Source: a virus | Length of the DNA: 64,000 nt | IMG/VR virus record: IMGVR_UViG_3300048597_000634 | Span: 141,545-205,544 of that record | Direction: 5' to 3' (one strand) | Shown here: positions 12,594 through 51,469 of the stretch, piece by piece | Position numbering within the stretch: the first letter of the stretch is position 1 | Layout of the letters: each line of letters starts with the position of its first letter | Notes under the pieces: generated by a model | What the model was told of the DNA's origin: nothing | The model's database searches: none | Seen by the model: only the letters and a program-made list of their open reading frames with translations | Made by a program: the position numbers and the translations under genes

Positions 12594-12824
12594 CTAGGAA
12601 CCTAGGACAGCTTCATGCTGTTGTTGTTGAAGTAGCTGGTACAAGTCGAATCTACATACGTCCTTGTGGAAGTTGAAGATAGAATTTCGGCTTAGATGCG
12701 ATTTGTGGTGTACATCTGGTCGACGCGCCTTAAGCTTTTTCAATGCGTCTAGAAGAACGATGATCTCAAGACGATCTTTTACTTTTGCGGCTTTGATAGT
12801 CATAACCGTTTGTTTGGTGATCAT
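12594..12824 (-). CDS. MLTK-leader small protein, 76 aa (MITK)
   Basis: Starts MITKQTVMTIKAAKVKDR and continues with a leucine/lysine helix (LDALKKLKARR) and a Gln-rich tail. The start ATGATC overlaps the preceding gene's stop as ATGA. No known domain. Confidence 0.6.
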   Translation of the reverse strand: MITKQTVMTIKAAKVKDRLEIIVLLDALKKLKARRPDVHHKSHLSRNSIFNFHKDVCRFDLYQLLQQQQHEAVLGS

Positions 12825-13078
12825 GGAAGTACTCTGAACTTGCTTTCTTTTAAGGCTCTAAGCGCATCTTCTGTAAATCGCTTAAACAGTCGATAAAGAT
12901 AGAGGTTCACCTTATTAAGGTACATGTCGGCCTTATTGAACCCGCTATAGTCCCAGCTGTTTTTGTTAAGCGCAAAGTACTCTACAGCGCACAACTTCTT
13001 TCTTAACCTATCAATATCTTTTAGTCTCAGGCGGTTGGGCTTTCTAATGTAAACCTTGGCTAGTTGTTTGGTGAGCAT
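12821..13078 (-). CDS. MLTK-leader small protein, 85 aa
   Basis: Starts MLTKQLAKVYIRKPNRLR at the ATG at 13076-13078. An upstream GTG (13147) would add 23 residues that look unrelated and overlap the neighbour. It is rich in Lys, Tyr and Leu helices. Overlaps the upstream gene by 35 nt. Confidence 0.6.
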   Translation of the reverse strand: MLTKQLAKVYIRKPNRLRLKDIDRLRKKLCAVEYFALNKNSWDYSGFNKADMYLNKVNLYLYRLFKRFTEDALRALKESKFRVLP

Positions 13079-13268
13079 CAATAGTCTTTGTGTAGGAGGC
13101 GATGCCTCTGAATATATCGTAGATATCGCTTCTTGCTTCGTGAACACTTGGGCTGAGCATCATATTCCCGAAGAGCTTTGCTCTTATCTCACCAATCTCT
13201 GAGACAAAGGAGCAATACATTGTCTCCGGGTCCTCCCTGGCCTTTTTAGCTATATGTTTACTCAACAT
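13044..13268 (-). CDS. MLTK-leader small protein, 74 aa (MLSK)
   Basis: Starts MLSKHIAKKAREDPET; leader ATGTTGAGTAAA. The stop of the preceding gene (13258-13260) is the TAA inside this leader, an 11-nt overlap. A central SEIGEIRAKLFGNMM helix is present; no known function. Confidence 0.6.
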   Translation of the reverse strand: MLSKHIAKKAREDPETMYCSFVSEIGEIRAKLFGNMMLSPSVHEARSDIYDIFRGIASYTKTIDAHQTTSQGLH

Positions 13269-13452
13269 AGACTACTATCTCTCTAAGAGGGTTAGGGGCG
13301 CTTGAGTACTCGAAGGGACTGACTCTAGGCGGAGGGAGTTTGGAGAGGTAGTAGGTTCTTTTCTGCACTCGGCTTTTACCGTCTTCGTCAAGGTTTTCCC
13401 ACCGACTGTAAGAGTAAAGTAGGTAATACTTCTGAGGCTCAGGCTTCGTCAT
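13258..13452 (-). CDS. small hypothetical protein, 64 aa
   Basis: Starts MTKPEPQKYYLLYSYSRW, an aberrant leader lacking the second residue. Tyr/Arg/Pro rich. Its stop lies in the leader of the next gene and its start overlaps the previous gene by 14 nt. Unrecognised. Confidence 0.5.
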   Translation of the reverse strand: MTKPEPQKYYLLYSYSRWENLDEDGKSRVQKRTYYLSKLPPPRVSPFEYSSAPNPLREIVVYVE

Positions 13453-13840
13453 CTTTGTCCACTGTGTAGTCTGCTATACGGAATATCCCACGCTTGACTA
13501 CATCTTTAACCCAAGCTTTGAGTTCTTCCTGTATCTGCTTTTCGCCTGCTTCTTCCGGGTCGGTATCCGTTGGGTAGCAGAAATCCACACCGAAGTTGTA
13601 GGTGTACTTGTAGGGCTTAACAGGCTCTTTTGGGCGCTCTTCTATCTTCTCTGTTACGTCTTCCGGGCTCACCCCGTAGACCTCAGGAAGGACGGATAGA
13701 ACTTTAATGGTGCAGCCTTTGGATAGGTCTAGCTGCTGGTGTAACTCGTCGACTCGGGCTTGAGCTTCGGTTAGGTTAGCAGCTTCAAACTCTACTTCGA
13801 CGTGTTCCTCTCTTAGTCCGGTAACGGTATAGGTTGGCAT
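13439..13840 (-). CDS. hypothetical protein, 133 aa
   Basis: Acidic protein with a ferredoxin-like strand/helix N-terminus (MPTYTVTGLREEHVEVEFEA) and a basic helix in the C-terminal third. It lacks the MLTK leader. Overlaps of 14 nt downstream and 28 nt upstream show tight packing within the array. Confidence 0.55.
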   Translation of the reverse strand: MPTYTVTGLREEHVEVEFEAANLTEAQARVDELHQQLDLSKGCTIKVLSVLPEVYGVSPEDVTEKIEERPKEPVKPYKYTYNFGVDFCYPTDTDPEEAGEKQIQEELKAWVKDVVKRGIFRIADYTVDKDDEA

Positions 13841-14037
13841 GATATAAAAAGTCCGTAGATGGGTAGGTTGTAGTGCATCTCTCTTATGTCTTCGACTATG
13901 TCGAATATCTCAGATGTTAGGTCGAACCCAAATCTTGAGTAGGTGGCTTCTTTAAGCTCATTGATTGGGCTTTTAAGCACAGTGTCTCTCCAAGAGGTTC
14001 TGACTTTAATGTTACTTAGTAGCTTTTTAGTTAGCAT
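13813..14037 (-). CDS. MLTK-leader small protein, 74 aa
   Basis: Starts MLTKKLLSNIKVRTSWRD, preceded by a Shine-Dalgarno-like AGAGGA (aagaggacaaaATG). It carries a SRFGFDLTSEIFDIVEDI segment similar in pattern to the neighbouring gene at 13044. Function unknown. Confidence 0.6.
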   Translation of the reverse strand: MLTKKLLSNIKVRTSWRDTVLKSPINELKEATYSRFGFDLTSEIFDIVEDIREMHYNLPIYGLFISCQPIPLPD

Positions 14038-14066
14038 TTTGTCCTCTTAGAGGTCTTTAAAGAGAG

Positions 14067-14508: not shown

Positions 14509-14512
14509 TGTG

Positions 14513-14716
14513 TTAAAACCACCCCCTATATTTATCTTTGGTGATGACTAACGAGATGGTGTAGAGCATTTCATTGATAAGCGGTAGGTTATGTTCATGG
14601 AGCTTCACCCTAAACACGTTCTTAGAGCTTATCGCCGCCCTAAGGTTTCTTTGCAACCAACCAGTGTGGTTAATGACCCTTACTTTGCGGCCCTCAACGG
14701 TTTCTTTAGTTAACAC
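14513..14716 (-). CDS. MLTK-leader small protein, 67 aa (GTG start)
   Basis: GTG start, leader GTGTTAACTAAA with AGAGGA upstream. Forms a subgroup with 14706-14873: both have an LR-A-SS-NV-R segment and a hydrophobic MxYxxSxVI helix near the end. The leader's TAA ends the upstream gene (11-nt overlap). Confidence 0.62.
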   Translation of the reverse strand: MLTKETVEGRKVRVINHTGWLQRNLRAAISSKNVFRVKLHEHNLPLINEMLYTISLVITKDKYRGWF

Positions 14717-14873
14717 TGTGTCCTCTTTTATTGCGGATGACCATGGATACTGCGTAGATCATGCGGTTAGTTGGCATTCTTCTATAAACGTTATTGCTGC
14801 TGACCGCCTCCCGTAGTTTGTAATTTACCTGTTTATCCTTCAACCTCTTCTGACCAAGGTTCTTCGTCAACAT
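14706..14873 (-). CDS. MLTK-leader small protein, 55 aa
   Basis: Start set at the internal ATG giving MLTKNLGQKRLKDKQ. Paralogue of 14513-14716: LREAVSSNNVYR and MIYAVSMVIRNK match LRAAISSKNVFR and MLYTISLVITKD, direct evidence for duplication within the array. Confidence 0.62.
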   Translation of the reverse strand: MLTKNLGQKRLKDKQVNYKLREAVSSNNVYRRMPTNRMIYAVSMVIRNKRGHSVN

Positions 14874-15099
14874 TTGTATAACCGTTATAAACATCTATAG
14901 CTTTAGTCAGGTCATCTCCTTGATATAGAGTGGTAGACCTCCGCTGATACCCTTCGGACTCTTCTACAAAATACCGACCATTGGCATCGTAGTGGAACGT
15001 AATGAGCTTATTATTTACACCAGTGGCGGCGGCGTATAGCCAGCGCCGGGTAGTGATGTAATCAAGGACTTGCTCGGGCTTAAGGTTGGTCATTTCCAT
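14833..15099 (-). CDS. hypothetical protein, 88 aa
   Basis: Acidic protein lacking the MLTK leader (MEMTNLKPEQVLDYI). It has a WLYAAATG helix, a beta-strand FHYDANGRYFVEE and an acidic tail. Overlaps the next small gene by 41 nt and the preceding one by 10 nt. Unrecognised. Confidence 0.55.
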   Translation of the reverse strand: MEMTNLKPEQVLDYITTRRWLYAAATGVNNKLITFHYDANGRYFVEESEGYQRRSTTLYQGDDLTKAIDVYNGYTNVDEEPWSEEVEG

Positions 15100-15302
15100 T
15101 TGGTCAGATAATTGTTTAATAATCCGTCATTGTTTTGTAGAGTCCTACCTACTGAATGGTTAATGTCTGGTGGCGTCAAGTACTCATCGTACTCTATATC
15201 AATATCAAGCTCTAGGCTCTGACTAATGCTAGAAATAAGGTTGTATAGTGCTTGGTCTATGCTTCGTTGATGGTTAGCACGGCACGGCGCTTTACTTAAC
15301 AT
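15090..15302 (-). CDS. MLTK-leader small protein, 70 aa (MLSK)
   Basis: Starts MLSKAPCRANHQRSID (leader ATGTTAAGTAAA); more acidic than most members (ELDIDIEYDEYLTPPD). No known domain. Confidence 0.58.
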   Translation of the reverse strand: MLSKAPCRANHQRSIDQALYNLISSISQSLELDIDIEYDEYLTPPDINHSVGRTLQNNDGLLNNYLTKWK

Positions 15303-17267: not shown

Positions 17268-17483
17268 CTATGTTTTTAGTTGTTGACGTGCCGCTGTTAA
17301 GAGTATCGCGGTTTGCATAGCCCTAGTTATGTGCCTTAATGGTCTATCTACAATCCAACGGAGGTTATAATGCATACGCAACTCTTTATTGGCTATGGCA
17401 GTTAACTCTTCTTCGAGAGCAATCAGCTGCTTGCCTTGGTTGAGCGCCGCCATACTATTGGTTAATGTCTGTTTAGTGACCAT
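17268..17483 (-). CDS. MLTK-leader small protein, 71 aa (MVTK)
   Basis: First of four tandem paralogues (17268-18073). Shares LRWIVDRPLRHITRAM with LRWVISRPFRHITRGT of the next gene up. Leader ATGGTCACTAAA contains the TAA that stops that gene (11-nt overlap). Confidence 0.63.
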   Translation of the reverse strand: MVTKQTLTNSMAALNQGKQLIALEEELTAIANKELRMHYNLRWIVDRPLRHITRAMQTAILLTAARQQLKT

Positions 17484-17685
17484 AAAGTCCAGCTACCGGC
17501 ATTGCGACTCGTGTGCCCCGGGTTATGTGTCTAAAGGGCCTGCTTATAACCCAACGCAGGTCATACAGTGATAATCGGTCTTCAAACGCGATAGAAGGTA
17601 GTGACCTTTCTAATATTGTCGGTAACTTAGATGGTCTTATTTTGGTGTTAGCTACCGTGTTGGTTAATGAATGTTTGGTAATCAT
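17473..17685 (-). CDS. MLTK-leader small protein, 70 aa (MITK)
   Basis: MITKHSLTNTVANTK, then LYDLRWVISRPFRHITRG near the C-terminus as in its neighbour. ATGA overlap (4 nt) with the gene upstream. Confidence 0.63.
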   Translation of the reverse strand: MITKHSLTNTVANTKIRPSKLPTILERSLPSIAFEDRLSLYDLRWVISRPFRHITRGTRVAMPVAGLYGH

Positions 17686-17909
17686 AGTGGTAGCTGGCTG
17701 TTGATAAATCCTTTAAGGCGCCAATGTATTCTACTCATATGTGAAAGTGGTTTCTCAACAGCCCAAATAACATTAAAGCATGCTATGAGCTCGTCATAAG
17801 GCATCTCTTTGGGGTATAAGACAAATACTGGGACTTTTAGTGGTTCTTTTAAGACTGCAGGAAGTTCCCGAAGCCGCACGATATTAGTTAAAGATTGTTT
17901 AGTGATCAC
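17682..17909 (-). CDS. MLTK-leader small protein, 75 aa (MITK)
   Basis: MITKQSLTNIVRLRELP; the shared C-terminal element is degenerate (VIWAVEKPLSHMSR). ATGA junction with the upstream gene. Confidence 0.62.
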   Translation of the reverse strand: MITKQSLTNIVRLRELPAVLKEPLKVPVFVLYPKEMPYDELIACFNVIWAVEKPLSHMSRIHWRLKGFINSQLPL

Positions 17910-18073
17910 GGTAAAAAGGCTAAGGTGGCGTGCCGGGTCGGGTTTTCCAATACCATGCAGAGAATTGTCAGCTCTATTGGGACTGTGTTATCTATCTTGT
18001 TAGCCAATAGGTCGGCTAAGTTTATTGGTCGTCCCGGCGGCTGGGTGTTAATTAAGCGCTGTTTGGTGACCAT
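17906..18073 (-). CDS. MLTK-leader small protein, 55 aa (MVTK)
   Basis: Start set at the ATG giving MVTKQRLINTQPPGR; eight residues can be added upstream but do not fit the leader. The end (CMVLENPTRHATLAF) resembles the P-x-RH-x-T element of its neighbours. Confidence 0.6.
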   Translation of the reverse strand: MVTKQRLINTQPPGRPINLADLLANKIDNTVPIELTILCMVLENPTRHATLAFLP

Positions 18074-18482: not shown

Positions 18483-18674
18483 TTCTCGTCTCCGACAATA
18501 CCAAGCAAATCTAACGTGTCTTCTATAGCAAACTCCAGCACCAAGAACTTACTGATTACGTCTCTCTTAGCGGCGCTTGTACGCTTTAAAGTTGTGGGGG
18601 AGGCGCCGCCTTACTTCGTCACATATATTGTCTTGCTTGTCTATCAGTTTGGCTAATGTCTGTTTGTTAATCAT
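18443..18674 (-). pseudogene. frameshifted MLTK-leader gene (MINK)
   Basis: Frame 1 reads MINKQTLAKLIDKQDNICDE and stops after about 35 codons at KRR. Continuing in another frame gives AAKRDVISKFLVLEFAIEDT. Both parts align with the intact upstream neighbour (MITKRSLTRLTNKQEDI and AKQDISEPLLAIELGIEDA). A single frameshift near 18570 therefore broke this copy, unless it is read by programmed shifting. Confidence 0.65.
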
Positions 18675-18885
18675 TTAACTTCAGTCTTATCCTAGGGCGT
18701 AAGCCCAACGCGTCTTCAATGCCTAACTCGATAGCCAGTAATGGTTCACTTATGTCCTGCTTAGCCAGCCCGATGGTGCCCATATATTCTTTGAGGGATT
18801 TGGCGTGGACTTGTGGGTTGGCAGTGTGCCACACAATATCTTCTTGCTTGTTTGTCAGCCTGGTTAGAGACCGTTTGGTAATCAT
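18667..18885 (-). CDS. MLTK-leader small protein, 72 aa (MITK)
   Basis: MITKRSLTRLTNKQEDIVW; intact paralogue of the frameshifted copy downstream. Ends 8 nt inside the next leader (TAA within ATGATTAAC). Confidence 0.63.
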   Translation of the reverse strand: MITKRSLTRLTNKQEDIVWHTANPQVHAKSLKEYMGTIGLAKQDISEPLLAIELGIEDALGLRPRIRLKLND

Positions 18886-20050: not shown

Positions 20051-20227
20051 GCTCCAATCCTTTGCTATTGCCTCAGCGTCTAACTGCCGGGCTTCTTTAT
20101 CTGTCATTGGGCGGCGCTTTAGTCGTCTCCTGATATACTCAAAGCGCCTTGGGCGTGCTTTATAGGTGGCGCCGATGTCTAAGGTGCGGGCTACGCCGTC
20201 GGTAAATGCTTTAAAGTAGTTGTTCAT
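19997..20227 (-). CDS. small basic hypothetical protein, 76 aa
   Basis: Start set at the ATG that overlaps the upstream stop as ATGA, giving MNNYFKAFTDGVART. Arg-rich centre (YIRRRLKRRPMTDKEARQL). Its last 54 nt overlap the frameshifted MLTK gene, so one of the two may be decaying. Confidence 0.5.
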   Translation of the reverse strand: MNNYFKAFTDGVARTLDIGATYKARPRRFEYIRRRLKRRPMTDKEARQLDAEAIAKDWSHVNQNKHPQNKETVRRS

Positions 20228-20433
20228 AATAGAAGGCACCAGCAATGTTCGATGACAGCGGCGTAATAATTGGTTACTGCATCATGGTAATCCGCACAGT
20301 CAATATCGTACTCAGTTTGCCTTAGTTGGCAGAAGACATGGAACCCGGCGCCGGTCAGTACCTTCTCTTCGGGGGAGTCAGTGCGCGGGTCGTATTCCAT
20401 TAAAGGGATGGATATGGTGCGTTTAGTCAGCAT
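20224..20433 (-). CDS. MLTK-leader small protein, 69 aa
   Basis: MLTKRTISIPLMEYDPRTD; Cys and Tyr rich C-terminus (YDIDCADYHDAVTNYYAAVI). Begins at the base where the upstream gene's TAA ends (TAATG). Confidence 0.6.
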   Translation of the reverse strand: MLTKRTISIPLMEYDPRTDSPEEKVLTGAGFHVFCQLRQTEYDIDCADYHDAVTNYYAAVIEHCWCLLL

Positions 20434-20588
20434 TATCGTAGGTGCCTCCCATTTACAGCTATGCTGAACGGCATTAGATTCCTAATGGAATTCTTTACGT
20501 ACACATTATGTTTCTTCTTAATAGCTCTTGTTAGTACACTTGCTATTTTTAAATTAGCGGGCGTATTTATAAGTTGTTTAGTCAGCAT
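20433..20588 (-). CDS. MLTK-leader small protein, 51 aa
   Basis: ATGCTGACTAAACAA gives MLTKQLINTPANLKIASVL and ends MPFSIAVNGRHLR. Its leader holds the TAA of the upstream gene (11 nt) and its own stop abuts the next ATG. Confidence 0.6.
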   Translation of the reverse strand: MLTKQLINTPANLKIASVLTRAIKKKHNVYVKNSIRNLMPFSIAVNGRHLR

Positions 20589-20763
20589 CGTCTTTTGGTT
20601 TTGCAAAGTAGTCTTTTATTTGCCGCCCAACGCCGGCGTTCATTAAATATCGGCCTAGTCTTGCGCTTCTAGTTAGCCTTATTTTGACGCAGGGACAACT
20701 ATAAAGTGCTCGCCATAGATGGTCTACAGCACTACGTTTGGGTTTGATTTGTTTAGACAGCAA
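20578..20763 (-). CDS. MLTK-leader small protein, 61 aa (MLSK)
   Basis: MLSKQIKPKRSAVDHLW; with the next two genes up forms a subgroup: TRSARLGRYLMNAGVGRQI here matches TKDTRLGLYLVNTNVGRLL in 20753-20947. 11-nt leader overlap. Confidence 0.63.
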   Translation of the reverse strand: MLSKQIKPKRSAVDHLWRALYSCPCVKIRLTRSARLGRYLMNAGVGRQIKDYFAKPKDDAD

Positions 20764-20947
20764 TATCTCTTGTACCTCTATGATAATCGGACAGCAGTCT
20801 TCCGACGTTGGTATTCACTAGGTATAGTCCTAACCTTGTGTCTTTAGTAGAGCTGGGGATTAGATATCTTAGGGGATGAAGTACGTCCCAGAGATAATAT
20901 TGGGCATTAATAGCGCTAGCTGGTGGTTTACCTGGCTTGCTCAGCAT
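20753..20947 (-). CDS. MLTK-leader small protein, 64 aa (MLSK)
   Basis: MLSKPGKPPASAINAQYYLW, followed by DTRLGLYLVNTNVGRLLSDY shared with its neighbours. Leader ATGCTGAGCAAG lacks the TAA but keeps TGA in the second frame. Confidence 0.63.
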   Translation of the reverse strand: MLSKPGKPPASAINAQYYLWDVLHPLRYLIPSSTKDTRLGLYLVNTNVGRLLSDYHRGTRDIAV

Positions 20948-21116
20948 TCATTCTCAAGTCATAGTGGTAATTAGCCAAGCAATTCCCTACTCTGGCATTT
21001 GCCGACTGGATATTTCCTACCCACTGTGGCTCATTAAGTAGCATTGGTTTGCTCAGCTCTTGTATAAGTCTAAGGGGGATTATTTTATATTTAGGCTTGA
21101 TGTGCTTGGTTAACAT
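20928..21116 (-). CDS. MLTK-leader small protein, 62 aa
   Basis: MLTKHIKPKYKIIPLRL; ends with NARVGNCLANYHYDL, a shortened version of the neighbours' RLGxYLxNxxVGRxxxDY element. 20-nt overlap downstream. Confidence 0.62.
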   Translation of the reverse strand: MLTKHIKPKYKIIPLRLIQELSKPMLLNEPQWVGNIQSANARVGNCLANYHYDLRMNAEQAR

Positions 21117-21348
21117 AATTCGTTAGGGGGGCGGCTAAGGCGACTGCGGTAATGGTTTTCTGTTTAGCCGGCGGCCATTCATTAATCCCCACGTCATAAA
21201 CTGATATCATCTGCGGCTCTGGCAGCCTATCTACAAACCAATCCTTGATGGTCTCTTTAAGTATATAGTTCGGCGGGCATTGCCTATAGGAGATTACAGT
21301 AAGGTGGTCTGGTCTAACGCGCCGCCGGCTATCGTATTTAGTGAGCAT
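21091..21348 (-). CDS. MLTK-leader small protein, 85 aa
   Basis: MLTKYDSRRRVRPDHLT; contains ETIKDWFVDRLPEPQMISVY and an alanine-rich tail. The TAA of its leader ends the upstream gene (11 nt). Confidence 0.6.
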   Translation of the reverse strand: MLTKYDSRRRVRPDHLTVISYRQCPPNYILKETIKDWFVDRLPEPQMISVYDVGINEWPPAKQKTITAVALAAPLTNYVNQAHQA

Positions 21349-21709: not shown

Positions 21710-21910
21710 TTAGCGGCGGCAATGTTGTAGATAATGAACTGTTTCTAGTGCTAATCTAATCCTGGACTCACGCGCTCTTGGGAATACTCCTATAGGTAGC
21801 GCGGCACGAGCAATGGATTCTTTGAGTAGTGAGTATACAGGGATGCCGCCGTAGATAACGAATAGCTCTAATTGATTGACGTAGGTTCTAGCACTATGTT
21901 TATTCAACAT
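21710..21910 (-). CDS. MLTK-leader small protein, 66 aa (MLNK)
   Basis: MLNKHSARTYVNQLELFV; leader ATGTTGAATAAA, where Asn keeps the T-AAA sequence that stops the OB-fold gene upstream (11-nt overlap). Confidence 0.62.
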   Translation of the reverse strand: MLNKHSARTYVNQLELFVIYGGIPVYSLLKESIARAALPIGVFPRARESRIRLALETVHYLQHCRR

Positions 21911-25352: not shown

Positions 25353-26423
25353 TTAAGTCCGTAACACAGGATAAATAGACGAAGGACGGAAGCTGCAACC
25401 TTCTAACGCCTCGCCGGGGCTAGCCAAGTATTCTTGAGCCTCTTCACAATTACGGCAACCAGGGTCCACTTCTAAGGCATAGGGGCGCCCGGTGCTGGGG
25501 TCATAGGTGAACAATACCTTCATATCTTCCAACGCCATTAAAGACTCCATCCACATAGAGTTAGTATTCGGCAACTGAATGGTCTTAACATCCAGTACTT
25601 CGGCGTTCATCTCAGTGCAATAGCGGTCCCAACCATAGCCGGTGATCCGCAGGCGTTTAACCTCTTGGTCTTCTTCCTTATTGATCTGCTCCAGAGTTTG
25701 GGTCTCAGGACGCATGACGATTTGTTCGTCTACAATGACGCCGCCGATAGCCCACACTGCAAATCCATCGGGGTAGAGAATAGCCGGGCCCTCAGGGTTA
25801 TTAAGGCACTCATTTTCTGCGTCCCAATGCACTTCCACGGGGTTCTCAGACACAATGGCCACGCCGTCGTAGACAATGGCACAGCTAATCATCTGACCGA
25901 AGTCCCGTAGGAGCTCTACGGATTCCATATCTACTTCGATATCGTGGGCGATGCAAGCCTCTGCGTAGGCTAAGGAACCTTGGAGCCAATAGGAGTAGAG
26001 GAAGTCAGAGCTGAGGTAATAGCGGAGGTTATCTACGTCTGATTTGTATTGCTCTAGGGTTTCGGTTACTAGTGTGTCGATGGTAGCCAGGTCGTCTACT
26101 AAGGGTTGCTCGCCGGTTACTTTGTAGTGAACGTATTCATCAGTGCGTTGGGTGCTGACGCCGGCCTTTTGTTCAATGGTTTGCCATTGTTCGGGGGTGA
26201 TAAAGCCCAAGGAGTTTAGTTTGAGGGCTTTATTAGTCATATCGGCGGGGCTATCGGCGAAGATAACTTCAGGCTTGTCGAGGTTAGCCATGGAGTAGAC
26301 TTTGCAGAGGGCGTTGGTGAAGCGGGGGCGGTCAATGGGTCCTTTAAGGATAGTAGCGTTAGCCCGCATATGGGCTTCGAGTTTCTGCAGAGTGGCTTCG
26401 TCGAGTTGCTTATTGTTAGACAT
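25353..26423 (-). CDS. DUF6745-like protein, 356 aa
   Basis: The middle carries VHWDAENECLNNPEGPAI, YPDGFAVWAIGGVIVDEQIV, which matches the GPA-x-x-x-DG pattern of DUF6745 repeats found in bacteria and phages. Function is unknown. CRNC near the C-terminus is a possible metal-binding pair. It ends above a terminator hairpin, so it closes its transcription unit. Confidence 0.5.
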   Translation of the reverse strand: MSNNKQLDEATLQKLEAHMRANATILKGPIDRPRFTNALCKVYSMANLDKPEVIFADSPADMTNKALKLNSLGFITPEQWQTIEQKAGVSTQRTDEYVHYKVTGEQPLVDDLATIDTLVTETLEQYKSDVDNLRYYLSSDFLYSYWLQGSLAYAEACIAHDIEVDMESVELLRDFGQMISCAIVYDGVAIVSENPVEVHWDAENECLNNPEGPAILYPDGFAVWAIGGVIVDEQIVMRPETQTLEQINKEEDQEVKRLRITGYGWDRYCTEMNAEVLDVKTIQLPNTNSMWMESLMALEDMKVLFTYDPSTGRPYALEVDPGCRNCEEAQEYLASPGEALEGCSFRPSSIYPVLRT

Positions 26424-26906: not shown

Positions 26907-27164
26907 TTAGCGGTGGTTATGCACCCTGACCGCGCGGTACATGATGTCCCAGCACGATTCTAAGCGGTCGTAGTAGGACTTAATGCTATCAAAGACCGGC
27001 GCCTCAATGTAGTTAAGGTTATATGGTCGGCAGACGCGTAAGATGTTGGCTATTACCTTGGTAGTAAGCGTTTGGTTACTGGCTAATGGCATATACCACG
27101 CGTCTATAGACTGTACCGCTTTGTAGTTGTCGGCTTGGTTAATGGCGGCGGCTTTGGTAATCAT
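26907..27164 (-). CDS. MLTK-leader small protein, 85 aa (MITK)
   Basis: MITKAAAINQADNYKAV, then ANILRVCRPYNLNYIEAPVF. ATGA junction with the gene upstream. First of a second array (26907-28217). Confidence 0.6.
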   Translation of the reverse strand: MITKAAAINQADNYKAVQSIDAWYMPLASNQTLTTKVIANILRVCRPYNLNYIEAPVFDSIKSYYDRLESCWDIMYRAVRVHNHR

Positions 27165-27322
27165 TTCTGCTCTGGGAAATAGGCATAAGCTTTGTACATA
27201 GAGTAAGGATAGTAATCGTTAATACCCTGACGAGTGTTGAGCTTTTTGAGTTTAAGCATCACTAAAACCCGGACTAAGTCTACCTCGCATCTATGTTTAA
27301 TTCTGGTGGTTTTGGTGATCAT
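27161..27322 (-). CDS. MLTK-leader small protein, 53 aa (MITK)
   Basis: ATGATCACCAAAACC gives MITKTTRIKHRCEVDLVRV and a Tyr-rich end (NDYYPYSMYKAYAYF). ATGA on both sides (4-nt overlap with each neighbour). Confidence 0.6.
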   Translation of the reverse strand: MITKTTRIKHRCEVDLVRVLVMLKLKKLNTRQGINDYYPYSMYKAYAYFPEQK

Positions 27323-27522
27323 TCGTAGCTAAGGGGGCTTTGGCACATGCTTGGCACATGCTTGGCGCATGCTCTGTACCAAAAGTGAAAGTCAATAAAG
27401 AGGTCGTAGAGTCTTCTATTCCACTGAGGTTTACTATCTTCGACCTTTATCCTAACTGCAAGTAGTGTATTTTCTAACTCTTCGTTTGATTTAGTAAACT
27501 TACTGATGTTTTTGTAGAGCAT
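27319..27522 (-). CDS. MLTK-leader small protein, 67 aa (MLYK)
   Basis: MLYKNISKFTKSNEELE; Trp/Phe-rich centre (FIDFHFWYRACAKH). Contains a short repeated CTTGGCACATG/CTTGGCGCATG triplet at 27350-27371. Leader Thr replaced by Tyr. Confidence 0.55.
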   Translation of the reverse strand: MLYKNISKFTKSNEELENTLLAVRIKVEDSKPQWNRRLYDLFIDFHFWYRACAKHVPSMCQSPLSYE

Positions 27523-27706: not shown

Positions 27707-27879
27707 TCGTCATTAGGGGCGTTTGCTGCACGTCTATACCTCATATATGTTTTTCTGAGCTCTTCAATAGTTCTAGCCCATGGTGGACTACTTTTTGTAG
27801 ATACCCTCCTACAATTAAGTAGCACTAGCTCCAAGTCTACGGTTAATTTAGTAAATTGACTAATGTCTTTCGCTAACAT
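27703..27879 (-). CDS. MLTK-leader small protein, 58 aa (MLAK)
   Basis: ATGTTAGCGAAAGAC gives MLAKDISQFTKLTVDLELV, similar in opening to MLYKNISKFTKSNEELENT at 27319. ATGA overlap with its downstream neighbour. Confidence 0.58.
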   Translation of the reverse strand: MLAKDISQFTKLTVDLELVLLNCRRVSTKSSPPWARTIEELRKTYMRYRRAANAPNDE

Positions 27880-28021
27880 GTCGGTAATATAGGTGCTTGT
27901 AGTCTACGAAGGGTGCTACGCCAAACCATAGTCCTGCGGGCCTTACATATTCAAGGCGCCGCAAGACTCTAGATACGTAGAGCTGTATATGCCTCTCTTT
28001 TGTAGTGTGTTTAGTTAACAT
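27860..28021 (-). CDS. MLTK-leader small protein, 53 aa
   Basis: ATGTTAACTAAACAC gives MLTKHTTKERHIQLYVSRV. The TAA of its leader stops the gene upstream (11 nt). Confidence 0.58.
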   Translation of the reverse strand: MLTKHTTKERHIQLYVSRVLRRLEYVRPAGLWFGVAPFVDYKHLYYRHVSERH

Positions 28022-29862: not shown

Positions 29863-30090
29863 TCAACCTTTCTTATAATGGTTCTGATAATAATCCTGCA
29901 ACAAAGCGATTAAAGATTGTATGACGGCGGGCTCTGCAGGAATATCGGTTCTGGGGTCTGATTCACCGTCTAAGTACGCTTCAAGGCAGTGAGTCTCTTC
30001 GTTGTAGTTGATATGAGTGAAGTATAGAGGTTCAGTGTTGTAGTCGGAGGGAGTTTCCATAAGGGTAGCTGATGGGCGGCGCTTAGACAA
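29863..30090 (-). CDS. acidic hypothetical protein, 75 aa
   Basis: MSKRRPSATLMETPSDYN, then an acidic central region and AVIQSLIALLQDYYQNHYKKG. Unrecognised. Overlaps the MLTK gene above by 8 nt. Confidence 0.5.
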   Translation of the reverse strand: MSKRRPSATLMETPSDYNTEPLYFTHINYNEETHCLEAYLDGESDPRTDIPAEPAVIQSLIALLQDYYQNHYKKG

Positions 30091-30268
30091 GTCTTAGGTC
30101 ACCATTCCTAAGTAGTTTTAGTTGGTTAACGCAATGGCTCTTTATTGTCTGATGCACCAGGATTATTTTTATACCTTCGGCACAGGCTAATATCGTTAAC
30201 AGCTCGACGATGTGGCTTTCTACCTCCTGGGTAATTAGGCGGCACCTAGTCAATTCTTTGGTAAGCAT
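30083..30268 (-). CDS. MLTK-leader small protein, 61 aa
   Basis: Start set at MLTKELTRCRLITQEVE (three residues upstream possible). Hydrophobic helix VELLTILACAEGIKIIL. Starts 23 nt inside the gene upstream. Confidence 0.58.
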   Translation of the reverse strand: MLTKELTRCRLITQEVESHIVELLTILACAEGIKIILVHQTIKSHCVNQLKLLRNGDLRLV

Positions 30269-33523: not shown

Positions 33524-33847
33524 TTAGTTGTGGTCTGGTAGATAAGCGACGTCAAAGGGGCCGGTGCTAATAGCTTCCCATTGTCTAGTGATTTCTCCGT
33601 TGGGTTCACAATAGGTAAACCGTTGGAATTGAATGGGTTGCTTTGCTTGAGTCCCAAAGTCAATGGTAACTATATTAGCGTTGGGCTGGGGTTCTTCTAC
33701 CACGTAACCATATACAGCTTTTTCATCTACTACGTCTTCTAACCCATCGAAGGATTCTACGCAGTCGACACTAATGAATATAGCTTTGACTTTGGCGCCG
33801 CGCTTAAGTGAAGGTGAGGCGGTAGCTATCTGAAGGAATGGAGTCAT
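33524..33847 (-). CDS. hypothetical protein, 107 aa
   Basis: Beta-rich soluble protein (KAIFISVDCVESFDGLEDVV, VYGYVVEEPQPNANIVTIDFG). Not recognised. Overlaps the MLAK gene by 44 nt. Confidence 0.5.
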   Translation of the reverse strand: MTPFLQIATASPSLKRGAKVKAIFISVDCVESFDGLEDVVDEKAVYGYVVEEPQPNANIVTIDFGTQAKQPIQFQRFTYCEPNGEITRQWEAISTGPFDVAYLPDHN

Positions 33848-34037
33848 ATATTTCTAATGTGAGTTGGCAGGTTATGGTTTCAGCTACGACTTCTGCCCTG
33901 GCATTGATATAGGCAGTGGCTATTATATAGCCGAATAGTGGTTTACCTTGGGCTTCTACTCGATGTAGTTGGTCATCAACGGTTATATGGACGCCGCGGC
34001 TAATGGTCTTTTTATGTACGAGGCGCTTGGCGAGCAT
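33804..34037 (-). CDS. MLTK-leader small protein, 77 aa (MLAK)
   Basis: MLAKRLVHKKTISRGVHI, then beta-strand segments. The leader ATGCTCGCCAAG has no stop in the other frames, and its overlap with the upstream gene is 26 nt, outside the discrete classes. Confidence 0.5.
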   Translation of the reverse strand: MLAKRLVHKKTISRGVHITVDDQLHRVEAQGKPLFGYIIATAYINARAEVVAETITCQLTLEIYDSIPSDSYRLTFT

Positions 34038-35513: not shown

Positions 35514-35717
35514 TCAGGCTTGGATATAGCTCCAAGCGCTAGCGTCTTTGTCTTTTAGTCTTTTACAGAAATGTCTGGCTTCTTTAAGCGTTTCAAATAC
35601 GGTTAGAGCACTAAAACAGGACTCATGGTAATAGAGTCCCCAGAATTTGCCGCCGTAGTACGGATAATAATCCCACTTAAGGTAGAATCCATGACACTCT
35701 TGGTCTTGTCTTGTCAT
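35514..35717 (-). CDS. small hypothetical protein, 67 aa
   Basis: MTRQDQECHGFYLKWDYYPY, aromatic-rich (KFWGLYYHESCF). ATGA overlap with the MLNK gene upstream. No leader motif. Confidence 0.5.
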   Translation of the reverse strand: MTRQDQECHGFYLKWDYYPYYGGKFWGLYYHESCFSALTVFETLKEARHFCKRLKDKDASAWSYIQA

Positions 35718-35908
35718 ATCAAACCATCCTTTATTAATTTGCGTTCGATATTGTCACATACTGCTCCACATAATCCAAAGATATTTGAAATCGTATTTAG
35801 ATTTACTTTATGGAACACTGCCCGCAGAATGCGTTGCAGCACAGAATAACTACACTCTACAGGCAGGCTATAATCATATGCTTTACGAACGGTCTGTTTG
35901 TTGAGCAT
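35714..35908 (-). CDS. MLTK-leader small protein, 64 aa (MLNK)
   Basis: MLNKQTVRKAYDYSLPV; paralogue of 35883-36083 along its length (QRILRAVFHKVNLNTIS vs QRTLQALFRLTGFSRIS; LCGAV vs LCKAI). Confidence 0.63.
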   Translation of the reverse strand: MLNKQTVRKAYDYSLPVECSYSVLQRILRAVFHKVNLNTISNIFGLCGAVCDNIERKLIKDGLI

Positions 35909-36083
35909 ATAACCTCTTTGCTATTGTGATATCAATAGCCTTGCAAAGTAGATAAGTCTGTGAAATGCGACTGAAACCGGTCAAACGGAATAATGCCTGT
36001 AGAGTTCGCTGCTTCACAGATTCATGCACAACTGTTGGTCGTGTAAAGGCATATGGTTTACGGACAGTGAGTTTGCTTAGCAT
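35883..36083 (-). CDS. MLTK-leader small protein, 66 aa (MLSK)
   Basis: MLSKLTVRKPYAFTRPTV; paralogue of the gene downstream, overlapping it by 26 nt. Shares TVRK-x-Y immediately after the leader. Confidence 0.63.
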   Translation of the reverse strand: MLSKLTVRKPYAFTRPTVVHESVKQRTLQALFRLTGFSRISQTYLLCKAIDITIAKRLYAQQTDRS

Positions 36084-38631: not shown

Positions 38632-38862
38632 CTAGCGTTTTTGTTGGATTGGTTTTGGAGGTAATCCTGGCGTTCGGTGCGGGGTCAACGTAAATCCTAG
38701 ACGATTTACACTCTCTGGGCTTTTTATACGGTACCAAGGATAATAACCGTATTTAGAGCCCCAAGTGTCCATTACAAAGCTTGTTAAGGCGCGCCTAATT
38801 CTCCAAGAAAAAGGATACTTTTTAGAGGTGTCACTGGGTGGAAGCTTAAGTTTAGTTAGCAT
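38632..38862 (-). CDS. MLTK-leader small protein, 76 aa
   Basis: MLTKLKLPPSDTSKKYPF; Pro/Tyr/Trp rich, ending GLPPKPIQQKR. A free-standing member between the MNKQ gene and the RNA-repair island. Confidence 0.58.
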   Translation of the reverse strand: MLTKLKLPPSDTSKKYPFSWRIRRALTSFVMDTWGSKYGYYPWYRIKSPESVNRLGFTLTPHRTPGLPPKPIQQKR

Positions 38863-40347: not shown

Positions 40348-40360
40348 AATTTCCTCAACA

Positions 40361-40570: not shown

Positions 40571-40576
40571 TGGTTC

Positions 40577-42104: not shown

Positions 42105-42131
42105 CTAAATGGTGGAGAGTGGTCACTAGGC

Positions 42132-42597: not shown

Positions 42598-42600
42598 TGG

Positions 42601-43608: not shown

Positions 43609-43612
43609 AGGT

Positions 43613-44618: not shown

Positions 44619-44805
44619 TGAACAGTGTCCTCTCTAAGACGAACTCCAGGTCGTTGTAACATTTTGGGATGTTAGCTTTGTAATGTACATAACCCCCTTT
44701 GTGCTCTCTCTGGATAAAACCTACTCTACCGCTCAAGACACGTATTTGGTCTGCGATAGCTCTATTCCGTCTTGGATAGTACTTGGCTGACCTCTTACTT
44801 AGCAT
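44608..44805 (-). CDS. MLTK-leader small protein, 65 aa (MLSK)
   Basis: MLSKRSAKYYPRRNRAIA; RVGFIQREHKGGYVHYKANI and PKCYNDLEFV resemble the following trio. Leader TAA position 5-7 ends the upstream gene (7 nt). Confidence 0.62.
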   Translation of the reverse strand: MLSKRSAKYYPRRNRAIADQIRVLSGRVGFIQREHKGGYVHYKANIPKCYNDLEFVLERTLFNAK

Positions 44806-44990
44806 CCGATAAATACTCCGTATGATAGGTCATCGATTACTCCAAACTGTCGTGGTGGGTCGAGCTTAGAGTAGAACCAACCGTTACTAATGTCGCTCAA
44901 ATAACCCACTCTTATTCCTAATCTTAGGCACTCTTCATTAAAGGTTTCCGTATTCATTGAGAGTCTTTGAGTCTTCTCTTTAGTTAGCAT
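44799..44990 (-). CDS. MLTK-leader small protein, 63 aa
   Basis: MLTKEKTQRLSMNTETFN; core LGIRVGYLSDISNGWFYSKL, DPPRQFGVI. One of a trio with 44994 and 45182 that share the sequence beyond the leader. Confidence 0.63.
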   Translation of the reverse strand: MLTKEKTQRLSMNTETFNEECLRLGIRVGYLSDISNGWFYSKLDPPRQFGVIDDLSYGVFIGC

Positions 44991-44993
44991 TGT

Positions 44994-45188
44994 TTACTCT
45001 ACAATCTTTACCGCCAGCCTAATTGCTACGAAGCATCGGGGTGGTATTAGTGTGTATAGGTAGTTGCAGCGAGACCCTATAGATTGTGACCGTTTCAAGT
45101 ATCCTACGTTGCATCCTAAGCCCAACCCCATTTCATTGAGTGTTTGTTTGTTTATCTTTAAGTGACGGGTTCTCTTTTTAGTCAGCAT
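44994..45188 (-). CDS. MLTK-leader small protein, 64 aa
   Basis: MLTKKRTRHLKINKQTLN; core LGCNVGYLKRSQSIGSRCNY, PPRCFVAI. Leader TGA ends the upstream gene (7 nt). Confidence 0.63.
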   Translation of the reverse strand: MLTKKRTRHLKINKQTLNEMGLGLGCNVGYLKRSQSIGSRCNYLYTLIPPRCFVAIRLAVKIVE

Positions 45189-45367
45189 AGCTTACTCACT
45201 GTCACTCTTATCACTGCAAAGCATTGGGGTGGTGTTATATCGTAAGTGAAAAAGCCTGGGGTTTTTGAAGGCTCTAAATACCCTACACTGCACCCTAATG
45301 CGAACTGTAGCTCCTTGTGTCTTTCCTTATCTATCTTTAGGGGATGAGTTTTCTCTTTAGTCAGCAT
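45182..45367 (-). CDS. MLTK-leader small protein, 61 aa
   Basis: MLTKEKTHPLKIDKERHK; core LGCSVGYLEPSKTPGFFTYD, PPQCFAVI. Its leader TAA is also the stop codon of the nucleotidyltransferase gene (11-nt overlap). Confidence 0.63.
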   Translation of the reverse strand: MLTKEKTHPLKIDKERHKELQFALGCSVGYLEPSKTPGFFTYDITPPQCFAVIRVTVSKLC

Positions 45368-46310
45368 GGTGGTCTAAGTAGTAAGAGACTAACTTAGCAT
45401 CCCAGAACTCTCTATCAGGTTCCGCAGGCAGGACCGACTTGAGTTCTCGCAGTTCATCAAGCTCATCCGCTAGCAATCCTTGCAGGTAGGGATAGGTATG
45501 CTTACCCTCTTTAATCTCCCTAAGAAACTTGGCCTCCTTCAAAGGCATCTCCAGATGTCCTGTGGTGAGCAGTTCTTTAATCTGATAGACGCAGCGGAAG
45601 GCATGGCTGACAGCTTTAAAGTCAACGCCACGGTTTTCCATAGCATCGACGCTGCGGGCTCCGTACTTGTCGATCCACAGCGAGAGGGAGTGGGCTAAGT
45701 TGCCTATCTTCTGATTAAGTTGGTAGTGCTTCTCTAGCACGCGGATGTAGTAGACAGTGTTACCCACCTTGTCTTGCTGCTCGACCTGGCGGATGTGCTC
45801 CGAAACCTCGAACTTTTCAAAGACTTCTCCCACCTTAGTATCGCTGGGATGAGTCTTTAACCAATCTCGGAAGCGGATTACTTCTCCGAGGCGGCTACCC
45901 TTCAGTCCATATTTAGCAGCCTGCTGGGTGGCGTAGCCGATGAACGGTTTAACGTTGCTGCTGAGCAGCTTACTGCGATGCTCGATGATATCTAACCACA
46001 CCTCGTTGTGCTCCAACCACATCTCTTTAGGAGAGAACAGAAGGTCGATGGCGTAGATCTGTCCGGTCAGGGCGTCCTTAATGAACCGGCGTAGCTCTTT
46101 GTATTGGTAGTCGATGTCGTCCTTGGTGTTGCGGCGGCGGTCGCTGGCTGCCTTTGTGTTGTAGATGATGGTTTCTTGGTCAATGCCTAGGATGACATCT
46201 TCTACCGGAGCTTTGTAGATTCCTTTGTAGTCCTTGTCAGAGTTGGGGGTGTCGGTGCCGTAGAGGTGGGAACCGTGGAGGCATAGAAGAATGGTGTTGA
46301 GTTTTTTCAT
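45357..46310 (-). CDS. Pol-beta-type nucleotidyltransferase (COG3541/RlaP-like)
   Basis: 317 aa. LLCLHGSHLYGTDTPNSDKD holds the nucleotidyltransferase GS (13-14) and SDxD (24-27) motifs; the remainder is helical with KYGLKGSRLGEVIRFRDW. This family accompanies RNA ligases in phage and bacterial RNA-repair loci and is proposed to add or restore nucleotides at broken ends. Opens the island from upstream; its stop lies in an MLTK leader. Confidence 0.7.
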   Translation of the reverse strand: MKKLNTILLCLHGSHLYGTDTPNSDKDYKGIYKAPVEDVILGIDQETIIYNTKAASDRRRNTKDDIDYQYKELRRFIKDALTGQIYAIDLLFSPKEMWLEHNEVWLDIIEHRSKLLSSNVKPFIGYATQQAAKYGLKGSRLGEVIRFRDWLKTHPSDTKVGEVFEKFEVSEHIRQVEQQDKVGNTVYYIRVLEKHYQLNQKIGNLAHSLSLWIDKYGARSVDAMENRGVDFKAVSHAFRCVYQIKELLTTGHLEMPLKEAKFLREIKEGKHTYPYLQGLLADELDELRELKSVLPAEPDREFWDAKLVSYYLDHHAD

Positions 46311-46507
46311 TGCTTATTGGTGACTTTAATAGCGTCTTTAATGGCTTGCGCTAACGGTGGCACTACATATGCGTAGACTGGGGCTTTGTTGTATCTCAAA
46401 GATGTCTCTCTTGCTCCTAGAAGATGAGTTTCTATCCAGAACATGGAATCATGGAGCTTGCTGAGACTTCTCTCAGTGTATGAATTTGTGTGCTGCTTGG
46501 TTAGCAT
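46307..46507 (-). CDS. MLTK-leader small protein, 66 aa
   Basis: MLTKQHTNSYTERSLSKL; a hydrophobic VYAYVVPPLAQAIKDAI end. Start set at the ATG whose first base is the last base of the upstream gene. ATGA overlap with the nucleotidyltransferase. Confidence 0.6.
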   Translation of the reverse strand: MLTKQHTNSYTERSLSKLHDSMFWIETHLLGARETSLRYNKAPVYAYVVPPLAQAIKDAIKVTNKQ

Positions 46508-46692
46508 TAGGACCTCTTTTTGACTCTCTGCCAAGCTCTAATAGCGAAGCCTACAGCGGCATAACACTTAGGGCTACCAATGCAACCGACTCTGGCCCTT
46601 GTTTTGTTTAATTCGCCGTCAACATAGTAAGCCCAGCAAACTGCTGGTTTTGGGTCTACTAGGCTTTGAATAGCGTGGCTCTTTTTAAGCAT
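46507..46692 (-). CDS. MLTK-leader small protein, 61 aa (MLKK)
   Basis: MLKKSHAIQSLVDPKPAV; ARVGCIGSPKCYAAVGFAI resembles the VGYL...PPxCF core of 44799-45367. TAATG junction with the gene downstream. Confidence 0.6.
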   Translation of the reverse strand: MLKKSHAIQSLVDPKPAVCWAYYVDGELNKTRARVGCIGSPKCYAAVGFAIRAWQRVKKRS

Positions 46693-48556: not shown

Positions 48557-48592
48557 CGTTCACAAAACCTGTAGAAAAACGAGGTCTTGTTT

Positions 48593-50358: not shown

Positions 50359-50386
50359 CAAGCTTCCAGTCTTTGTGTGCGGCTAA
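49082..50386 (+). CDS. tnpB: TnpB RNA-guided endonuclease
   Basis: 434 aa. MLVREAKLLNGAQGQYIALD opening, RuvC-I IGLDLGLKYF, RuvC-II VVYEDLKIGNM, zinc ribbon CPNC...CPSC and RuvC-III FEACRDTVAAMNILKK, where DRDxNAA is changed to CRDxVAA but the catalytic Asp remains. TnpB cuts DNA guided by RNA from the element's right end and promotes transposon retention. The last nine codons come from sequence beyond the element, so the natural end was probably nearer the hairpin. Pl strand gene amid minus-strand genes. Confidence 0.85.
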   Translation: MLVREAKLLNGAQGQYIALDEAIRTAQFIRNKCVKYWMDNTSVGKATLYVHSKDLAKEFEFAKKLNSTARQASAERAWTSISNFYSRCRKGEKKKGYPQFKKHCRSVEYKQSGWKLSGDCMQITFTDGFNAGTFSIFCNAETREDLHTLKINRVRVVCRADGYYAQFLFDADRKEQGVYTGNVIGLDLGLKYFYKDQNDNAVVYPQYLRKAEKRLKRQQRRLSRKFKKGLKPQSNNYHKQRKRLGKTHLKVQRQRKDWSIKQARCVVMSNDIVVYEDLKIGNMVKNHSLAKSISDASWYQFTQWLDYYGKIWDKVVVSVNPAYTSQDCPNCGHRVKKTLSTRTHSCPSCGFEACRDTVAAMNILKKGMKLLGIEWQNSTQGHCETGEKSRTTEEIIASAIDRQLEIVSDVDESVTRIPALKGEEHVKLPVFVCG

Positions 50387-50662
50387 ATAACCTTTCCAAG
50401 TCTGAGCAACACGCTTAACTATCTGTTTGGACACCTTTGTAGGCAAGTCCAAATATGCCTCTGTCGCCTTCAGTAGGTGATAAAGGTCATAGAATCCAAT
50501 GTATCCGCCAGACTCAAAGAACTTCTGTCTGATGTGGTAATTGGCTAAGTTGTATAAGTTCTTTGCCCTCCACGATAAATCGTCCACTGTGGAGAAATAG
50601 GCACTTGATAGCTTAATGTTTGTTCGCTCGACTTGTCTCATGGATTTACGCTGTGCAACCAT
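50357..50662 (-). pseudogene. N-terminal piece of old tnpB
   Basis: VERTNIKLSSAYFSTVDDLS, WRAKNLYNLANYHIRQKF and SKQIVKRVAQTWKGYLAAHK follow the N-terminal pattern of TnpB. The frame continues into IS-B for a few codons only. Cut by IS-B at KDWKL. Confidence 0.7.
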
Positions 50663-50703
50663 TACTACTAGATTCTACAACTTTCTACAGATTTATGCCA
50701 ACA

Positions 50704-50781
50704 GTGACCAACCCTTAGGTTGTTGGCTTTAAGAAGTCCAGGATAGGCTCTGAGGCTAGACTCTGCTCTTTGCTTGTTCAT
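50704..50781 (-). pseudogene. N-terminal half of the IS-split MNKQ gene
   Basis: MNKQRAESSLRAYPGLLKAN then NLRVGH; the similarity to MNKQHAKNSLKAYIMAENGF of the upstream gene stops where IS-A begins. ATGA overlap with that gene shows the original tandem layout. Confidence 0.65.
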
Positions 50782-51020
50782 AAGTTAGTCACTATTTGTT
50801 TACTAAGACTTTTCCCGGCGGCTATGCCCATACGCTGGCTAATCCAACAAACTTTGTTTGTGTAACCTATGCTAGTAGTCTTAGTTGTTTGTCTATAGCG
50901 TGTGATAGCCTGACTTATTTCTGCATTAATTAAGATAGTTAGCCTGTGATTCTTACAGATAAAGCCGTTCTCCGCCATTATATACGCCTTCAAGCTATTC
51001 TTAGCGTGCTGCTTGTTCAT
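50778..51020 (-). CDS. MNKQ-leader small protein, 80 aa
   Basis: MNKQHAKNSLKAYIMAEN; Ile/Thr-rich centre and basic end (RMGIAAGKSLSKQIVTNL). Intact member of the MNKQ pair. Confidence 0.58.
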   Translation of the reverse strand: MNKQHAKNSLKAYIMAENGFICKNHRLTILINAEISQAITRYRQTTKTTSIGYTNKVCWISQRMGIAAGKSLSKQIVTNL

Positions 51021-51276
51021 ATAGTCCTAAATCTGATATTACCGTAGCTGTGATTAGGTTCGAAGCACGATCATATAATCTATAAACATCAAACCGAAGC
51101 CAAAGTGTGTGTTCTTTGTACAGTCCTCGATTAGGTAATATAGCTCTTGTGCTTACCGCACTGAGATTAAATCTGACTTGAGTCTTAACTACATTCTGAC
51201 TAGAACAAACGTTGGTTACTGGCTTTTTGAAGGACATCCTATTAGAAATGACGCTGGTCTTAGTTTTAGTTATCAC
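51001..51276 (-). CDS. MLTK-leader small protein, 91 aa (GTG start)
   Basis: GTGATAACTAAAACT gives MITKTKTSVISNRMSFKKP. Ends LYDRASNLITATVISDLGL. Its leader TAA terminates the upstream gene (11 nt). Confidence 0.55.
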   Translation of the reverse strand: MITKTKTSVISNRMSFKKPVTNVCSSQNVVKTQVRFNLSAVSTRAILPNRGLYKEHTLWLRFDVYRLYDRASNLITATVISDLGLYEQAAR

Positions 51277-51469
51277 CACTCCTCCGTTTTAGCGTGGTGC
51301 TTATGGTGTTATAAACAGAATGAAATTGGTTGAGAATTTGCAGTCTTAAAGAACACAACGGCAGACAGTATACAGAGCAACCCTTCGATTGTAACTCTCT
51401 AACTTGTACAGTTATAAGTGACTTGTATGATTTGCTGCGAGCTCCTGCGGCATTAATTTTGGTAATCAT
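51266..51469 (-). CDS. MLTK-leader small protein, 67 aa (MITK)
   Basis: MITKINAAGARSKSYKSL; Cys-rich middle (SKGCSVYCLPLCSLRLQIL). ATGA junction with the next gene up. Confidence 0.58.
   Translation of the reverse strand: MITKINAAGARSKSYKSLITVQVRELQSKGCSVYCLPLCSLRLQILNQFHSVYNTISTTLKRRSGDN

Follow-up and report, generated by a model that had tools for sequence, protein, structure and literature searches.

A large set of small genes that share a short N-terminal leader, M-[LIV]-[TSN]-K, and have little else in common was identified in the window, which is the whole 64,000-nucleotide stretch of DNA analyzed here (bases 141545-205544 of a 205,544-base IMG/VR virus record). The window is the terminal part of a 205.5-kb cyanophage record that is distantly related to Microcystis phage Ma-LMM01. 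The set comprises 58 minus-strand open reading frames (ORFs) of 35-91 amino acids (aa) located between 9.7 and 51.5 kb of the window. Sequence analysis established the leader, its constraint as a peptide, the divergence of the remaining parts of the proteins (the bodies), purifying selection on them, and tandem duplication. It also showed that the leader is kept in a diverged relative, the genome G002 (IMGVR_UViG_3300048597_000133). From these results, the tagged ORFs would be real, translated accessory genes of a freshwater cyanophage. Our preferred reading, to which we give a probability of roughly 0.55, is that these accessory genes join one leader, roughly eight residues long and recognized by a single common partner, to many unrelated, mostly basic bodies.

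Extent of the tagged gene set

The window was scanned for all open frames that begin with ATG, GTG or TTG and continue with [LIV][TSN]K; nested starts and two in-frame hits within larger genes were removed. The motif was found at the start of 57 of the 144 small minus-strand ORFs, and 1.04 +/- 0.99 (maximum 5) were expected from 1000 residue shuffles; an enrichment test against shuffled sequence had been proposed in a first-pass annotation of the window. On the plus strand of the array region, one ORF of 45-100 aa fits the motif. The remaining 140 kb of the genome contains two convincing extra members, on the same strand and just beyond the window (genome 138137-138591). Lysine occupies residue 4 in 58 of the 62 M[LIV][TSN]x starts of the window and in 33 of 37 in G002.

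The first-pass annotation had described about 65 such genes between 12594 and 51469, with a common leader and diverging bodies. The scan and the comparison of bodies agree with that description, and the large set exists; the count is 58, as the 65 minus-strand hits of the raw scan include spurious internal ones. The range was too narrow, since one member lies at 9738-9950 and two lie beyond the window, and the clusters that had been listed omitted 25108-25296 and 38632-39056. The members, identified by the start-motif scan unless noted, are given below, together with variant-leader candidates and a DUF6745 gene. Members are referred to by their first coordinate, and subgroups with similar bodies are labelled 17k, 20k, 31k and 44k.

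9738..9950, minus, MLTK gene (MLTKARTKPRR), 70 aa, outlier downstream of DNA ligase
12594..12824, minus, MITK gene, 76 aa
12821..13078, minus, MLTK gene, 85 aa; longer in-frame GTG start reads MFTK...MLTK
13044..13268, minus, MLSK gene, 74 aa
13813..14037, minus, MLTK gene, 74 aa
14067..14300, minus, MLTK gene, 77 aa
14290..14508, minus, MLTK gene, 72 aa
14513..14716, minus, MLTK gene (GTG start), 67 aa, paired with 14706
14706..14873, minus, MLTK gene, 55 aa, paired with 14513
15090..15302, minus, MLSK gene, 70 aa
15343..15537, minus, MLSK gene, 64 aa
17268..17483, minus, MVTK gene, subgroup 17k
17473..17685, minus, MITK gene, subgroup 17k
17682..17909, minus, MITK gene (GTG start), subgroup 17k
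17906..18073, minus, MVTK gene, 55 aa
18282..18482, minus, MLTK gene (GTG start), 66 aa
18567..18674, minus, MINK gene, 35 aa, shortest member
18667..18885, minus, MITK gene, 72 aa
18888..19127, minus, MISK gene, 79 aa
19326..19475, minus, MLTK gene (TTG start), 49 aa
19903..20049, minus, MLTK ORF, 48 aa, 53-nt overlap with upstream ORF; least certain
20224..20433, minus, MLTK gene, 69 aa
20433..20588, minus, MLTK gene, 51 aa, resembles 21525
20578..20763, minus, MLSK gene (TTG start), subgroup 20k
20753..20947, minus, MLSK gene, subgroup 20k
20928..21116, minus, MLTK gene, subgroup 20k (weak)
21091..21348, minus, MLTK gene, 85 aa
21338..21541, minus, MLTK gene, 67 aa
21525..21707, minus, MLTK gene, 60 aa, resembles 20433
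21710..21910, minus, MLNK gene, 66 aa
25108..25296, minus, MLSK gene, 62 aa, adjoins DUF6745 gene
26907..27164, minus, MITK gene, 85 aa
27161..27322, minus, MITK gene, 53 aa
27500..27706, minus, MITK gene, paired with 28011
27860..28021, minus, MLTK gene, 53 aa
28011..28217, minus, MLTK gene, paired with 27500
30083..30268, minus, MLTK gene, 61 aa
30246..30470, minus, MITK gene, 74 aa
31262..31468, minus, MLTK gene, 68 aa; upstream in-frame start 31519 bears second MLTK leader
31513..31704, minus, MLTK gene, subgroup 31k
31706..31888, minus, MLTK gene, subgroup 31k
31878..32093, minus, MLSK gene, subgroup 31k
35714..35908, minus, MLNK gene, paired with 35883
35883..36083, minus, MLSK gene, paired with 35714
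38632..38862, minus, MLTK gene, 76 aa
38898..39056, minus, MLTK gene, 52 aa
44158..44358, minus, MITK gene, 66 aa
44355..44618, minus, MLSK gene, 87 aa
44608..44805, minus, MLSK gene, 65 aa, weak member of subgroup 44k
44799..44990, minus, MLTK gene, subgroup 44k
44994..45188, minus, MLTK gene, subgroup 44k
45182..45367, minus, MLTK gene, subgroup 44k
46307..46507, minus, MLTK gene, 66 aa
47365..47559, minus, MLTK gene, 64 aa
47549..47764, minus, MLTK gene, 71 aa
47767..48009, minus, MLTK gene (GTG start), 80 aa
51001..51276, minus, MITK gene (GTG start), 91 aa
51266..51469, minus, MITK gene, 67 aa
18076..18285, minus, probable member with variant leader (MIIKQYG), inside array; its body aligns prominently with that of 47767 (Z ~10)
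27319..27522, minus, probable variant-leader member (MLYKNIS)
33804..34037, minus, possible variant-leader member (MLAKRLV)
46507..46692, minus, probable variant-leader member (MLKKSHA)
25353..26423, minus, DUF6745 protein gene beside array

Two leaders in one frame (MLTK...MLTK) were observed at 31262-31519 and 12821-13147 of the window and at 65206-65397 of G002, which suggests that these double-leader genes consist of a leader remnant fused to the next gene.

Constraint on the leader

The leader was analyzed in the tagged genes, of which the two genomes together have 93. Information content is 2.2, 3.1 and 4.0 bits at residues 2-4, values that are too high because the pattern itself served to select the genes. 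Residues 5-9 carry 0.77, 0.69, 0.99, 0.54 and 0.35 bits, and positions thereafter are near background. Conservation peaks at residue 4; of the positions beyond it, residue 7 stands out most. Since constraint fades past residue 4 and approaches background after residue 9, the functional leader is placed at about eight residues, with the consensus M-[L/I/V]-[T/S/N]-K-x-[N/T/S]-[L/T/A]-[R/K].

The codons used for these residues are broad. All six leucine codons occur, as do isoleucine and valine codons, ACT and ACC, AGT, AGC and TCT, and AAA and AAG; the leader serine is therefore encoded by both AGY and TCN. A DNA-level repeat or a promoter was ruled out as the cause because the leader codons vary. 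Base independence would predict 8.7 phenylalanine and 5.6 methionine codons at residue 2 among the 93 genes, a set from which these residues are left out by construction. When small ORFs with x-[TSN]-K were scanned without that condition, position 2 held neither residue in either genome; MFTK was seen once, at a longer nested GTG start.

A secondary nucleotide bias toward YTR, ACT and AAA is present in the leader codons, and it fits stop/start overlaps. The upstream stop lies inside the leader in 51 of the 93 genes, with overlaps of 1, 4, 7, 8 or 11 nt (commonly 11, 7 and 4). The leader could thus be a nucleotide cassette within which the upstream gene ends and ribosomes re-initiate, the peptide being a by-product of translational coupling. 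ATG-YTR-ACT-AAA does hold stops in both other frames (TRA in frame 2, TAA in frame 3), Shine-Dalgarno-like sites are scarce before tagged genes (equally so before controls), and the Ma-LMM01-type array described below also has 14-nt stop/start overlaps. However, the same residues are kept in the other 42 genes, whose upstream stop lies elsewhere, which rules out a pure stop/start cassette as the sole cause. A cassette would also permit phenylalanine or methionine at residue 2 and isoleucine or asparagine at residues 3-4; these do not occur there, or hardly do. Nor does a cassette account for the wide synonymous choice at residues 2-4. We regard this explanation as improbable. On the evidence of codon usage and residue conservation, the overlap explains part of the nucleotide pattern and not the peptide constraint, and selection maintains the leader as a peptide.

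Bodies of the tagged genes

After the leader was trimmed, the bodies were alike only inside subgroups of two to four mostly neighboring genes. The similarity noted by the first-pass annotation within 44799/44994/45182, 17268/17473, 20578/20753 and 35714/35883 was recovered. Further similar sets are 17682 (with 17268/17473), 27500/28011, 14513/14706, 31513/31706/31878 and 20433/21525. A profile comparison of the subgroups, also suggested earlier, was carried out with leader-trimmed profiles of 14 groups; hhalign probabilities reached at most 2.3%, and no similarity between subgroups was found. A shared hidden fold was supported neither by these hhalign values nor by alignment scores between members, which were not clearly above controls. 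Searches for body motifs gave weak, inconsistent signals.

It could be argued that the leader has no function of its own and that the set is one fast-diverging paralogous family whose N-terminus drifts slowest. Adjacent genes are often paralogues, that is, tandem duplicates, and a weak body motif learned in one genome slightly beats shuffles in the other (Z 2.2-3.2, in 2 of 6 tests). However, with synonymous sites close to saturation, residue 4 has stayed invariant, and the bodies yield no common profile. Thus, active constraint on the leader is required, and we consider simple slow drift highly improbable.

The bodies were expected to be mostly basic, and they are: their charge is +6.8 per 100 aa with 83% net positive, versus -4.4 and 23% for neighboring small genes. 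They are rich in arginine, poor in glycine, and use codons that are rare in core genes (AGA/AGG, ATA). The proportion of nonsynonymous differences (pN) was below that of synonymous differences (pS) in all 13 paralogue pairs compared, which indicates that the bodies are constrained as proteins. Untranslated filler is for that reason unlikely, though the codon usage is odd.

The members had been viewed as a large set of modular accessory genes belonging to no described family, and the database searches bear this out. No member was matched in PHROGs, by PADLOC models (no body was linked to a defense system) or in a sequence-profile search of the PDB. Pfam gave one marginal match among the 58 members (RabGAP-TBC, E = 0.0065), which is probably due to chance. 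AlphaFold2 models of two subgroups were of low confidence, with predicted local distance difference test (pLDDT) values of 51 and 68. A literature search, mostly outside subscription journals, returned no report of such a family, and tandem-motif scans of viral contigs returned only G002, already known, and unrelated coincidences. The tag is a means to recognize accessory genes that annotation misses, as no PHROG model matched.

Relatives and turnover

G002 contains 35 tagged genes, all on the same strand and many of them in a syntenic position. Its block at 62.8-69.5 kb is syntenic with the array at 12.6-25.3 kb of the window and lies between orthologues of 12155-12553 and 25353-26423. Core orthologues of the two genomes are 59-90% identical, with synonymous sites near-saturated. 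No body pair across the window and G002 was found at E < 0.05, and no subgroup pair exceeded 2.3% in hhalign. Because the tag is kept in G002 without recognizably orthologous bodies, the leader persists while the bodies turn over. In ten further relatives (G009-G018), whose capsid proteins are 55-77% identical, neither tag enrichment nor comparable runs of small genes were found, several of these records being fragments, and the other N-terminal patterns flagged there looked like noise. The tag system would therefore be lineage-specific, within the limits of these fragmentary records.

The DUF6745 gene at 25353-26423 is 87% identical in G002, adjoins the array there as well as in the window, and did not turn up in any other relative compared. 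By its position and distribution, its product is a candidate partner of the leader, and a candidate only.

Possible roles of the leader

The leader is most likely kept because one common partner recognizes it. It may belong to the phage, as an assembly or sorting component, or be a hub protein of the host. The bodies would have been swapped, duplicated and quickly diverged, and each probably acts on a different host target. A four-residue tag on dozens of unrelated proteins predicts a single reader and would mark effectors without homology. More specifically, M-[LIV]-[TS]-K and some four further residues under weak constraint may form a new N-terminal signal for sorting or docking, with a single reader and some 60 interchangeable, unrelated effectors. 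In such a plug-in effector system new bodies would become functional by gaining the leader; this form is put forward tentatively, at somewhat under even odds. That the arsenal serves anti-defense or host takeover, as the first-pass annotation proposed, is a plausible hypothesis.

In another specific form of the preferred reading, the leader would be a docking motif for one host hub (e.g. a Clp-type protease or RNA polymerase), with the bodies as adaptors that bring in different host proteins. An invariant short motif joined to variable, mostly basic bodies under purifying selection would fit this arrangement, but no known motif or partner was matched, and we find it rather unlikely. If true, docking to a host protein would expose a new takeover route in cyanobacteria.

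The closest known organization is that of the T-even internal proteins, in which a constant N-terminal leader targets the prohead and the bodies are a diverse set of defense proteins (PMC3012670, PMC9026906). As in IPI, IPII and IPIII, the tagged genes encode small basic proteins with a constant N-terminal leader (about 10 residues in T4) and highly diverse bodies (PMC3012670, PMC9026906). Residues 4 and 7 are key in the T4 leader (PMC3012670, PMC9026906), and the tagged set is likewise strongest at 4, then 7. The set departs from the T-even proteins in the sequence of its leader, in the absence of a consensus for cleavage, in its size (about 58 genes rather than a few) and in having no linkage to head genes. 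By this analogy the tagged proteins may be virion-packaged internal (ejection) proteins, the leader being a capsid-targeting sequence and the bodies pre-made anti-defense proteins injected with the DNA. The shared architecture speaks for it, and a head maturation protease adjoins the capsid gene. That the prohead reads the leader, so that the proteins enter the head and are ejected along with the DNA like T4 internal proteins, is a guess made against the odds. If the tag does package proteins, the T4 internal-protein strategy would be enlarged more than tenfold.

Several results weigh against the preferred reading of a leader with one common partner, some of them against its packaging form. 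First, no partner of the leader was identified. Secondly, frame 0 scored highest by phage codon usage in just 21 of 58 bodies, versus 28 of 30 control genes; because the codon usage of the bodies is poor for the phage, part of the set is possibly weakly constrained. Third, packaging finds no conserved cleavage site: [LI]xE occurs within residues 5-20 in 6 of 93 genes, and an acidic residue occurs at any one of positions 5-14 in at most 11 of 93. Fourth, the tagged genes are sited outside the virion module, no virion protein bears the leader, and phages with a 73%-identical major capsid protein lack the tag. No match to known internal-protein families was found in the PHROGs and Pfam searches above. 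Virion packaging is therefore judged possible but somewhat unlikely. Membership in the T-even family is not claimed, because there is no conserved cleavage site, the virion module is at a distance from the tagged genes and the tag is missing from capsid relatives; the organization is like that of the T-even internal proteins without belonging to them.

Comparison with other phage gene arrays

In Ma-LMM01, gp137-157 (L219:36752-41397) form a tandem array on the minus strand. It consists of about 20 small paralogues, and MaMV-DC and MaMV-CH01 (L282) have counterparts of it. Its stop/start overlap, GATGAAGATAATTAA (DEDN* / MKIIN), is 14 nt long, and a conserved FYYRL is present; the array varies between strains, with 47-51% covered at 90-92% DNA identity in other strains and different spacing. 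These distantly related cyanophages (capsid about 30% identical) resemble the window in having a minus-strand small-gene array with a shared start and stop/start overlaps. However, gp137-157 start with M-[KR]-x-I-x, and their bodies share motifs throughout (W-[AST]-P-[RH]-N, IPITDP, FYYRL and an acidic C-terminus). The MLTK genes were rejected as members of the gp137-157 family, since they have neither its leader nor its body motifs and hhalign probabilities between that family and the MLTK subgroups were below 1%. In Ma-LMM01, the best-studied relative, the early (takeover) genes as published are gp054-gp063 (PMC5780444) and not gp137-157, which speaks against equating such arrays with the first genes of takeover.

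Early host-takeover modules of lytic phages (e.g. T4, SPO1) are dense operons of small, poorly conserved accessory genes, and the MLTK set resembles them in this respect. To our knowledge, these modules have not been described as having a common N-terminal motif, which is the feature of the MLTK set.

Host and genomic surroundings

The major capsid protein of the record is of the Phage_cap_E type. It matched only ten phage records, all of them cyanophages at about 30% identity (Microcoleus phage My-WqHQDG and the Ma-LMM01/MaMV group). Relatives of the TnpB encoded at 49082-50386 come from cyanobacterial genomes, and the best of them are 67-77% identical. Because of these capsid matches and TnpB relatives, the host is likely a cyanobacterium. 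This TnpB belongs to an IS605-type element at 48555-50714. G002 (L109:1125-2444) keeps only the flanks of the element (about 450 and 350 bp, 93-95% identical) elsewhere in its genome and lacks tnpB. The conserved end at 50362-50714 could, as a guess, include the guide RNA.

Genes for DNA ligase, Thg1, RNA ligase and RlaP also lie inside the array region, and PhoH and ThyX are near it. RNA-repair-like genes (AAA/kinase-like, Thg1, RNA ligase, calcineurin-like phosphatase and RlaP) are clustered between array genes on the minus strand at 39058-46310. The ATP-dependent DNA ligase (9952-12222, minus strand) contains an intein with a LAGLIDADG endonuclease; in G002 the flanking ligase parts nearly adjoin, so the intein appears to be absent there. 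Three group I introns (minus strand; 4057-4284, 4732-4988 and 5152-5392) lie within 1.4 kb, and all exceed the Rfam gathering score. An NrdB-like ORF of 820 aa (L014:13703-16165) gave scattered matches to the profiles of the ribonucleotide reductase small subunit, ThyX and PhoH, possibly due to an intein.

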